Translations under genes and position numbers: made by a program
Source: Arabidopsis thaliana
Taxonomy: Eukaryota; Streptophyta; Magnoliopsida; Brassicales; Brassicaceae
Assembly: GCF_000001735.4 (NCBI RefSeq)
Contig: NC_003071.7
Span: forward strand, 18,699,443-18,763,442
Length of the DNA stretch: 64,000 nucleotides
Reading direction: 5' to 3'
Notes under the pieces: model-generated
The model's input: only the letters and a program-made list of their open reading frames with translations
The model's database searches: none
Told to the model about the DNA's origin: nothing
Shown: positions 31,852 through 53,194 of the stretch, one piece after another
How the letters are laid out: each line of letters starts with the position of its first letter
Numbering within the stretch: position 1 is the first letter of the stretch

Positions 31852-33425
31852 ATGGCTGCTTTGAAAGGTTATGGCTTGTGTTCTATGGACTCTGCTCTTC
31901 AATTCCCCTGTCCTAAGCTATTCAATAGCTACAAGAGGTTATTTCTCTTCTCCCTCATATTTTGCAGACATATAACGTTTTGCTCAAGCTTTTGTGTGTT
32001 TTGCTTATTCCAAGCTAGGCATAATAATCTCTGGAATTGGCTTGAATAGTCAGTCACTGTCTAGTTGAAATTGAATGCTAGTGTTCTAGGATTGAAAGCT
32101 ATTAGTTCAATGGTGATTCTGTCGTAAACCTGTCTAATTGAAATTTGCAATTGAATGTTTCTGGTTTGGATTTGAAAAACTATTACTTCCTTTGTCTAAT
32201 CATATAGAAAGACTTCAGTTTTATAAATAAAGTTGCTTTTTTTTTCTTACATTGAGACGTATGGACTCAAGCTCATGTGTGTTGTTAACACAGAAGGAGC
32301 TCGAAATGGGTCTCTCCCAAAGCAGCTGTTGTACCCAATTTCCATCTCCCAATGCGCAGCTTGGAGGTTAAAAACAGGTCTGTCAGATAGAGTTTAGCTG
32401 GACCAACGTTATATGATTGTACAATCTCATAGTATATACTCTCTGTTCTGGAAGTTTATGCCATACCTGGAACTTGTTTTGTTTTTGTGCTTGTCAGGAC
32501 AAACACAGACGACATTAAAGCTCTACGTGTGATCACAGCTATCAAAACACCGTATCTACCTGATGGAAGATTCGACCTTGAAGCCTACGATGACTTGGTC
32601 AACATTCAGATACAAAACGGTGCTGAAGGTGTCATTGTTGGTGGTACAACTGGTGAAGGACAACTGATGAGCTGGGACGAACACATTATGCTTATAGGCC
32701 ATACCGTTAACTGTTTTGGCGGAAGCATCAAAGTCATTGGAAACACTGGAAGCAATTCGACTAGAGAAGCAATCCACGCGACTGAACAAGGATTCGCGGT
32801 TGGAATGCATGCTGCTCTTCATATAAACCCTTACTATGGCAAGACTTCTATTGAGGGACTGATTGCACATTTCCAGTCTGTTCTTCATATGGGACCGACG
32901 ATTATATACAATGTGCCTGGTCGAACAGGGCAAGATATACCGCCTCGTGCCATCTTCAAACTTTCTCAGAATCCGAATTTAGCTGGTGTGAAGGAATGTG
33001 TTGGGAACAAGCGAGTCGAAGAGTACACTGAGAATGGGGTTGTTGTGTGGAGTGGGAATGATGATGAGTGTCATGATTCCAGATGGGATTATGGAGCAAC
33101 AGGAGTTATATCAGTTACTAGTAATTTAGTTCCGGGTTTGATGAGGAAGTTGATGTTTGAAGGTAGGAATTCATCTTTGAACTCAAAGCTTCTACCTTTG
33201 ATGGCTTGGCTGTTCCACGAGCCAAACCCGATTGGAATCAACACTGCTTTGGCTCAGCTTGGAGTTTCGAGGCCGGTTTTTAGGTTACCATATGTACCAT
33301 TGCCACTGTCTAAGAGGCTTGAGTTTGTGAAACTGGTGAAGGAGATTGGACGAGAGCATTTTGTGGGTGAGAAAGATGTTCAGGCTCTTGATGATGATGA
33401 TTTTATCCTTATCGGTCGATATTAG
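31852..33425 (+). CDS. DHDPS2: 4-hydroxy-tetrahydrodipicolinate synthase 2
   Basis: Three exons (31852-31937, 32294-32377, 32498-33425) give 365 aa. The first about 55 residues are basic and Ser-rich and look like a chloroplast transit peptide. The mature TIM-barrel enzyme starts near [20 protein letters not shown]. Visible catalytic elements are GGTTGEG (pyruvate carboxylate site), YNVPGRTG (catalytic Tyr) and GVKECVG (Schiff-base Lys). The enzyme condenses pyruvate with aspartate semialdehyde, the first step specific to Lys synthesis in plastids, and plant forms are Lys-inhibited. Site II motifs and a telo-box upstream fit expression in growing tissue. The DHDPS2 name is from locus context. 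Confidence 0.96.
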
Positions 33426-48215: not shown

Positions 48216-49602
48216 TCAAATATCAATTGAGGCACACACACCTTTCGGATCTGCGTTCTTGACAATCCATGGATGTTGCATGATCTTCTCAATAGAGAGT
48301 CGTTTGGAGGGATCCTTAACAAGAAGCTGCAAAAGATTTAAAACAACTATATGTTAATGCTTAATAACTAGTCAAGCAAGAGAGTCGTTGTGGGTATGCT
48401 TTAGCTTGGTTGGGTGTGTACCTGACTGATAAGATTTTTGGCTTCTTCTGAAACATTCGGTGTAAGAGGAAAACTCAGATCAATCTTAAGAATTCTGCAT
48501 GACAGTGAATACAAAACGTCATCAGGAGCTGAGCTTCTGTAATTTTCTACAAAAGATAAAAAGTCTAGTCTTTTCTTACCTCTTGAATGTATCTTTTTGA
48601 CTCTCGGCTTCGAATGGAGGGTTACCGTAGAGAAACTCGTAACACAGTATGCCTAAGGTCCAGTTATCAACTGCATAATCATGATCTCTATTTTCTACCA
48701 TCTCAGGTGCTAAGTAATCCAAGGTTCCACACATTGTTTTCCTCTTGTTACTTGACTGAACTGACCATCCAAAGTCAGCAATTTTCAATCTCCCCTGCAA
48801 GTATATGACAATACCAATGATGCATATCCTGAGTTCTCAATGCAAAAACTATAACCATACACACATACCTCATGATCGAGCAACAAATTTTCAGGTTTGA
48901 TGTCTCTATGAATCACACATTTGCCATGACAATAGGCCAGTGCCTGACTGAGACTTGCAATGTACTGAAATAAAGGAAAAGCCATCAGTTTCATCACAAG
49001 AATCAATTGAGAAGCATTGCACAACCAACATTGCAACAAAGTGAACATTTCAGGCAAAATTGGGATTAAAAGGGGAGAGGGAGCGAGAGAGAGACTCACA
49101 GTGGCGGCTTGTTGTTCAGTAAGATGACCATTCTGTTTGAGCACACCATAGAGCTCACCACCATGAGCATACTCGAGAATCAAGAAAATCCTCTCATTGT
49201 CATGGAACCAACCAAAAAGACGCAAGATATTTGGGTGCCTTAAACTCGTTTGGATCTCCATTTCTCTCCTAAGCTGATGATGAATTTTATACTTCTCTAT
49301 CTGTTCCTTGAATATGACTTTCAGCGCCACTATGTACTTGCTCTATATCCCAAATTCAACCAAAACAGCAATTGATTCATAAAATTAGGGTTTCGATGAC
49401 AGTAAAAGCTCAAACTGAACGAAATTTCTACCCCAATCTAACAATTACAACATAATCGAAAGGAAACGAGTACCTTGGCTTCTCGGGCGAGATAGACTCT
49501 GCCAAATTTGCCTTTTCCAAGTGGTCTCCCGATCTCGAAATCTGCCAGGGACCATTGCTTCTCAGTATTGCCAGCGTCAGATTCTGTCGATTTCTTACTC
49601 AT
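48216..49602 (-). CDS. AUR3: Aurora kinase 3
   Basis: Six exons (49602-49474, 49342-49100, 48964-48869, 48794-48580, 48494-48422, 48326-48216) total 867 nt, 288 aa. A short N-terminus ([12 protein letters not shown]) precedes a full Ser/Thr kinase domain: glycine loop [14 protein letters not shown], catalytic Lys in [28 protein letters not shown] (the Trp after DFG is typical of Aurora), activation loop [15 protein letters not shown] and C-lobe HPWIVKN. The short N-terminus and this activation loop fit plant beta-type Aurora. AUR3 acts at centromeres in mitosis and phosphorylates histone H3 Ser10 (literature). It is convergent with GRF9. Confidence 0.96.
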
Positions 49603-49938
49603 TTTTCCGATCACCGTACTGCTAACGACTCAGACGACGGCGAGAAAGCAAGAGCAAGAGCCTTAGTTTTCAGAGGAAGTTCGAGAGAGAAAGAGAGCGG
49701 AGATAAACTAAATTTGAAATTCTAAGTCCCTGCAGAAGTAACAGACCCATTCAATACGCAGCGTTTCGTAGTTTTTAATTCCGAGTTTCACTTTTATACT
49801 AACATGACGATTGTACCCTCTACGCTCTCTCTAAATTTCGAAACTGCTACTCGACAATCACATTACCCATCTCTTCTTTTTTGAAGAGTATATAACATTT
49901 TAATTGTTTTGTTCTGTTTTTTGAACTCTACATCATAT

Positions 49939-50493
49939 AAGTACAACTACCTTCAGCATCTTTCGTTTATTTCCTTTTAATAAGTTTTAGGATGTGTTGG
50001 TTAAATTAGTTTAAGCGATTTGTCGCTTTGATGCTTATGAGCCGGCGTGTTTCCTTTAAACTGATGATTACAGATTTTGATTTAGAGAATTGCAATTTGT
50101 GTTGAAGAAATGAAGTGGTTTCCGACGTTTATTACCATAGCTTTGAGCTGTTATCTCTTTGTGGAGCTTCAATTAGTTTATCCCGATAAATTCCCAAAAA
50201 AATCCATGACTGATTTCATTATCTGTGGTGATTCTTTACCGGAATTGATGCTCGGACGACGAAAGATGTTATCAGAATACTTTGGTTACTCGTCTAACAC
50301 GTGTTATGTTGTTGACACGTTGTAATCGATGGAGTCAAAATGAAGTTTTCTTCTTGCGTCGACAATTCTCTTTTGGGTCTGTTAGATCTTGTTAACATCT
50401 GTAATCGGGCTTTTGTAGTCCAGTTTGTATGTCTCGTTTCTTTAATACAATATTTCACTTATGAGAAAAAAAAAAAAAAAAGTACAACTACCT
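49939..50493 (+). mobile_element. Poly(A)-tailed retrocopy with 14-bp target duplication
   Basis: AAGTACAACTACCT occurs at 49939-49952 and again at 50480-50493. Between them are about 527 bp that end in a run of about 16 A on the plus strand. Flanking direct repeats plus a 3' poly(A) are the hallmarks of LINE-mediated reverse transcription of an mRNA. No RNA polymerase III A/B boxes were seen, so a SINE is unlikely. The insert contains an intact 71-codon ORF (50110-50325). The two As next to the tail make the duplication 12-14 bp. The parent gene is not recognised. Confidence 0.8.
50110..50325 (+). CDS. 71-aa ORF in the retrocopy, possible secreted peptide
   Basis: The ORF begins MKWFPTFITIALSCYLFVEL, which looks like a signal peptide or single membrane anchor. 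The rest (PKKSMTDFIICGDSLPELML, then RRKMLSEYFGY and SSNTCYVVDTL) contains two Cys after the leader and a dibasic RRK that could be a processing site. I do not recognise the family. The ORF is uninterrupted and sits centrally in the retrocopy with 5' and 3' UTR-like flanks. It may be a retrogene or just an undecayed processed pseudogene. Confidence 0.4.
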   Translation: MKWFPTFITIALSCYLFVELQLVYPDKFPKKSMTDFIICGDSLPELMLGRRKMLSEYFGYSSNTCYVVDTL

Positions 50494-50530
50494 AAGATTT
50501 ACAACAGAAACAAACAATCCAAGAAGAAAT

Positions 50531-53194
<2,664 letters not shown>

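Follow-up and report, generated by a model that had tools for sequence, protein, structure and literature searches.

Between two genes in the window (the whole stretch of 64,000 nucleotides of Arabidopsis thaliana DNA that was analysed) lies a short insertion that ends in poly(A); the window covers C2:18699443-18763442, on chromosome 2. The question raised by this locus is whether the insertion is a retrogene encoding a small secreted peptide, as an earlier note proposed, or a copy of a mobile element.

The insertion and its neighbourhood

The features that define the insertion and its surroundings are:

49600-49602, minus strand: start codon of a kinase gene (open reading frame there; Pkinase domain in the following exons, Pfam)
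49939-49952, plus strand: 5' copy of the direct repeat AAGTACAACTACCT, a perfect 14-bp match to the 3' copy
50466-50479, plus strand: poly(A) tail of 14 A's, or 16 when the duplication's two leading A's are counted
50480-50493, plus strand: 3' copy of the direct repeat AAGTACAACTACCT, a perfect 14-bp match to the 5' copy
50531-50533, minus strand: stop codon of an AAA ATPase gene (reading frame ending in WNSEFGSN; AAA and AAA_lid_3 domains in the upstream exons, Pfam)

The claimed position between a kinase gene and an AAA ATPase gene was borne out by the Pfam domains, both genes being on the minus strand. The kinase gene is presumably AUR3 (encoding an Aurora kinase), and the insert starts about 350 bp upstream of its start codon. 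The two genes are 928 bp apart, and the 541-bp insertion accounts for over half of this gap.

The direct repeat of 12-14 bp that had been described around about 527 bp with a poly(A) end proved to be a perfect one, with exactly 527 bp (49953-50479) between the two copies and a terminal run of 14 A's; its length is given as 12-14 bp because the first two A's could be those of the tail. Two copies of the 12-mer GTACAACTACCT are present in the 64-kb window, both forward and none reverse; 2000 dinucleotide shuffles, each made from 1 kb of upstream sequence, contained none. The sense strand of the insert is the plus strand. The 5' duplication is preceded by TACATCATAT and the target is T/AA (CATAT/AAGT), as in a LINE-type insertion. 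These observations support a retroposition event at 49953-50479, with a target-site duplication and a poly(A) tail.

Relatives in the genome

The searches for relatives and for a parent gene were confined to the window's own genome, that of A. thaliana (119.66 Mb). A search with 49900-50520 returned four other places, namely C5:5114770-5115285 (the closest copy, 89% identical to the insert), C2:9721523-9721938 (68%), C4:16471261-16471720 (67%) and a 38-bp match to the 3' end, and searching with three other copies yielded further ones. Nearly all matches are single stretches; the two pieces at C4:1373131 and C4:1373871 were read as one element. In a tree of 12 copies the insert forms a pair with the copy on chromosome 5; the pair has a support of 100/100, and the path between the two amounts to 0.15 changes per site. 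At blastn E<=1e-4, 40 loci fall in one component, which includes fragments, near duplicates and one duplicated segment and in which many links consist of the 5' motif or hairpin (see below) alone.

The full element of the family is 0.7-1.2 kb long and the window copy corresponds to about the 3' two-thirds:

49953-50465, plus strand: 5'-truncated retroposon body, about positions 261-800 of the family profile

A profile of the family, in which the window copy was included, matched 49961-50473 with E=2.1e-126 (nhmmer), and because the insert starts at about position 261 of the 800 positions it lacks approximately the first third. The same profile matched all of the 24 further loci examined (E<=1e-4); these loci were fetched via their 5' end, which makes matches confined to that end circular, and in L075, L076, L077 and L081 the match extends far into the body. 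The duplications, tails and ACACGT boxes described below are independent of how these loci were chosen.

Two observations on single members may be added. L016 (C4:4657000-4663000) and L017 (C4:4689500-4695500) are 97% identical; both are on chromosome 4, separated by about 32 kb, and they may represent a segmental duplication. In addition, a stretch ending in TTGCAG or TTACAG, which resembles a 3' splice site, was seen by eye to recur in the family body (in L015, L016, L036, L040, L041 and at 50066-50073 of the window).

Duplications and tails

Of 33 oriented loci that were scanned, 31 have a candidate tail, and 17 of these have a direct repeat scoring at least 11, a score reached by 13 of 620 mispaired controls; the duplication of L049 is a match inside a polypyrimidine tract and is not counted, which gives 16/31 rather than 17/31. 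In 14 of the 31 loci, about half, no repeat is above the threshold. Duplications are listed for 20 loci, the window included, 15 of them exact by string search (those of L003, L043 and L046 were spotted by eye and confirmed in this way) and five with mismatches (L015, L036, L050, L051 and L074, the last being among the 20 yet scoring only 8 in the scan). In 14 of the 20 loci a T precedes the duplication, and in 18 the duplication starts with A. At the nearest copy (C5:5114770) no duplication could be recognised by eye. A poly(A) tail flanked by target-site duplications is thus a property of the window copy and of relatives.

The 5' end of the longer relatives

At the start of the longer relatives stands a motif resembling TCTCTCTTnTCTCTCTnnnATCTTTTAGAGAGAGA. 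When up to 3 mismatches are allowed, the genome contains 29 matches to this pattern (18 forward and 11 reverse) and none to its backward control; 24 of the 29 were read, and 14 of these are among the loci with credible duplications. Relatives bounded by their own duplications measure 0.8-0.9 kb, and the longest stop-free frames in six full-length elements reach 61-115 aa, from which the family appears to be without a reverse transcriptase of its own.

These properties bear on the possibility that the insert is the 5'-truncated 3' end of an autonomous LINE and not of a non-autonomous element. Target-site duplication, poly(A) tail, 5' truncation and target site are all as expected of a LINE insertion, but the length of the longer relatives and their limited frames speak against it, and none of the 29 matches to the 5' motif is followed on its strand by an ORF1 (DUF4283) in the next 4 kb (150 of 209 candidate places compared), on which ground the motif was rejected as a LINE 5' end. 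We regard this origin as very improbable. We put at about 0.92 the probability that the insert is a copy, truncated at its 5' end, of a non-LTR retroposon that is non-coding and non-autonomous: it has a target-site duplication, a tail and the corresponding target site, it is truncated with respect to longer relatives, and it belongs to a multi-copy non-coding family.

The longer relatives also have in common a 5' polypyrimidine hairpin, which the window copy has lost; in L046 no hairpin was found. From 32 hairpin stretches, near duplicates and poorly placed ones were left out, six for the alignment and seven for the folding. The 26 aligned regions gave a consensus stem of 11 pairs with a small covariation term (-0.12). 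For a 17-pair stem, 44 cells show changes on both sides that preserve the pairing (25.5 in shuffles; 0/500 reach 44) and the covariation score is 0.241 versus 0.150 in shuffles (again reached by 0/500). Counted more strictly, 9 pairs are changed on both sides (reached by 258/500 shuffles) and 31 further pair types are seen (reached by 55/500), so that neither measure exceeds the shuffles clearly, and with the partner slid by one the covariation score is 0.221. Folding with a locus's own right flank beats folding with swapped flanks in the sum over 25 loci (0/20000 permutations reach it); the own flank is in the best four for 12 of the 25, the rest being ordinary and two near the bottom. We read the hairpin as a real stem with partial covariation, although the signs in the outer stem are not all consistent. 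A match of the hairpin covariance model at 31918-31992 of the window (E 0.0037) was put down to chance, as it has no profile match and lies inside an apparent gene.

The 71-codon reading frame

The uninterrupted frame on which the peptide proposal was built is present:

50110-50325, plus strand: 71-codon open reading frame; stop in the sister copy, ATG absent in 11 other aligned copies

Among the ATG-initiated sense frames of the insert this one is the longest. A sense frame of this length was found in 4.1% of 2000 dinucleotide shuffles, and one on either strand in 8.8%. Pfam gave no match for it. In the sister copy at C5:5114770-5115285 codon 49 of the frame is TGA, and when 13 copies are aligned, the remaining 11, one of which is a fragment, are without the ATG and have indels relative to the window frame. 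Between the two closest copies the divergence is 25/216 in the frame and 28/280 in the flanks (p=0.66), and the differences are distributed over the three codon positions as 7, 7 and 9 (over 210 bases). The dN/dS of the frame is about 0.35 in this comparison, a value as low being reached by 3 of 82 overlapping pseudo-frames. Together, this value and the length of the frame weakly favour coding; selection on the frame is compatible with the dN/dS, though not demonstrated.

A processed retrogene, i.e. a host mRNA that was reverse-transcribed and has kept its coding capacity for a small secreted peptide, would have the duplication, the tail and the absence of introns that are typical of processed pseudogenes and retrogenes, and the intact frame with its hydrophobic N-terminus and the dN/dS relative to the sister copy would agree with it. 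The insert differs from these in being one of a multi-copy family sharing a 5' structure. The BLAST search for an intron-bearing parent, which had been suggested as a check, found no parent locus in the one genome searched, which, within that genome, is one of the outcomes named beforehand as refuting the proposal: DNA searches with the insert and three related copies returned only other copies and no gene split into exons, so the view of the insert as a processed copy of a host gene was not upheld. When the genome was searched with the peptide, seven places were returned at E<=1, and all but two contain stops. The two exceptions are the window copy and C3:15233394; the latter, a weak match (E 0.14), was rejected as a protein relative because it looked unrelated by eye. 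The broken frames in the other copies, and a divergence in the frame that is not below that of the flanks, make a retrogene for a secreted peptide unlikely, and taking all evidence into account we give it the lowest probability of the readings considered here, a very small one. As judged from the comparison of copies, the 71-codon frame is most likely a chance frame.

ACACGT boxes and the 3' end

Towards the 3' end, further elements are shared within the family:

50297-50302 and 50315-50320, plus strand: two ACACGT boxes, common to many members
50441-50465, plus strand: family 3' end TTTAATACAATATTTCACTTATGAG, which from known plant signals we take to be a polyadenylation region of plant type

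ACACGT or ACGTGT is found in 18 of 23 trimmed non-redundant elements (mean of 3.5 and maximum of 9 in shuffles), at 0.63-0.90 of the element length and in many members near 80% of it. This count leaves out 17 of the 40 loci, which are near duplicates, fragments or without a defined end; when every locus is counted the figure is 27 of 40. The boxes are 27-32 bases apart in 12 loci, including two pairs of near duplicates, and 18 apart in the window. They could be a transcription-factor site or part of a stem, both of which are possible. Since the boxes that recur in the family overlap the last part of the 71-codon frame, they could conserve bases in its 3' part without any coding.

A search with TTTAATACAATATTTCACTTATGAG (up to 3 mismatches) gave nine places in the genome, the window included, and none for the backward control. 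Further matches of the 3'-end pattern at C4:4201204 and C3:1765587, places not otherwise found, are perhaps more copies. At L005 (C4:12569858-12569895, minus strand) 38 bp match the family 3' end, with AATATTACACTTATGAG followed by poly(A), in a sequence that is otherwise different, possibly a chimeric retroposon or a shared 3' tail.

Comparison with known retroposons

The SINEs of plants (e.g. RAthE1/RAthE2 and AtSB) are likewise non-autonomous, have a poly(A) tail and target-site duplications and are moved by LINE proteins, and they are shorter and derived from tRNA. The present family differs from them in that no head derived from tRNA, 5S or 7SL was found: Rfam gave no family in the insert region or in five loci, and ARAGORN no tRNA in five loci.

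TSCL is labelled 'LINE?' in the TAIR annotation (PMC13390833, PMC6297998) and is, like the present family, an ambiguous LINE-like repeat of A. thaliana. A comparison of the group with one TSCL locus (chr3:10284167-10284467) yielded no match below E 0.18; TSCL was not adopted as the name of the family, and a single locus does not settle identity. Searches of the open literature, including passages of PMC13390833, PMC6297998 and PMC4031123 and leaving aside the Repbase and TAIR tables, brought up no description of the group, and one possibility is that the family is uncatalogued.

The closest resemblance is to Sadhu. In the paper by Rangwala and Richards, Sadhu elements are described as non-coding, about 900 bp long and without tRNA or 5S origin, with a 5' polypyrimidine tract, a poly(A) tail and target-site duplications of 7-16 bp that are preceded by T and start with A's, and as falling into deeply diverged subfamilies of dispersed low copy number with many 5'-truncated copies (PMC2848041). 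The present family agrees with this description in its length near 900 bp, lack of coding capacity, polypyrimidine tract, poly(A), target-site duplications, absence of a tRNA or 5S origin, dispersed low copy number, deep divergence and 5'-truncated copies.

Whether the insert is itself a member of Sadhu as defined by these authors (PMC2848041) was judged from the architecture, which is the same, and from comparisons with 10 of the 39 listed loci (L021, Sadhu1-1, was dropped because the element is not at its published coordinates on the assembly). Under the same blastn criterion 5 of the 10 known loci link to no other Sadhu locus, so the missing link between Sadhu and the present family is weak evidence, and for the same reason a deep common ancestry is possible. 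When low-complexity sequence was left unfiltered, one match of 34 bp (85%) to the Sadhu2-1 stretch was also seen, which is absent with the filter on and the sense strand. None of the 40 loci, however, is closer than 46 kb to any of the 39 listed positions, and the family profile matches none of the 10 Sadhu loci below E 0.3. The motif CAATCGTTSC (up to one mismatch, first 200 bases) was found in 6 of 10 Sadhu loci and in 0 of our 40, a result that rests on the longer relatives, as the window copy and some others are truncated, and in 16 the sequence had been trimmed to 30 bases ahead of the 5' motif. In place of CAATCGTTSC the family has a 5' hairpin, and the covariance model of this hairpin gave nothing better than E 0.78 on 11 Sadhu stretches. 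Finally, ACACGT or ACGTGT is present in many family members and in 1 of 10 Sadhu loci. Membership of Sadhu is in our opinion unlikely, though less remote than an origin from a host gene or an autonomous LINE.

Proposed origin and implications

The copy in the window probably arose as follows. A polyadenylated RNA of about 0.7-1.2 kb would start near the 5' polypyrimidine hairpin and receive its tail at the TTTAATACAA end; its transcription would probably be by RNA polymerase II, because the poly(A) region is of plant type and similarity to tRNA, 5S or 7SL is lacking. The tail would prime target-primed reverse transcription at a T/AA site by LINE proteins, probably supplied in trans, as the length of the target-site duplications, the target bias and the tail suggest. 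Reverse transcription that halts early would leave a copy without approximately the first third, the hairpin included. We infer that the truncated window copy has no function and has lost its mobility.

More tentatively, and with rather less than even confidence, the 40 or more loci could be uncatalogued non-coding retroposons that form a superfamily in A. thaliana distinct from Sadhu and the SINEs, with ACACGT boxes and a covarying 5' hairpin. In such a superfamily the hairpin would be the part under selection, kept by compensatory changes while the bodies diverge past easy recognition, and it would serve as a promoter-proximal handle for making or protecting the RNA or for loading it onto LINE protein; the ACACGT boxes would precede the tail in the RNA. 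Our confidence in this reading was lowered slightly because two of the covariation measures are not above those of shuffles.

For annotation, the consequence is that a supposed peptide gene becomes a copy of a mobile element, which averts a false gene annotation beside an Aurora kinase gene. The locus also suggests that a plant genome as well studied as this one contains a second group of Sadhu-like retroposons, one that can be recognised by its structured 5' end where the overall sequence fails. The 2010 Sadhu paper predicted, for other plants, divergent relatives that keep little beyond the length, the 5' motif, the poly(A) tail and the target-site duplications (PMC2848041); the present family would be such a divergent relative within A. 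thaliana itself. The possibly covarying 5' hairpin provides a testable hypothesis on what is required for the copying of such RNAs.

Because the stop codon of the neighbouring AAA ATPase gene is only 37 bp from the 3' duplication, its 3' UTR and poly(A) site may fall in the antisense strand of the retroposon (50300-50533), and, speculatively, the poly(A) site of the gene may now be inside the element.
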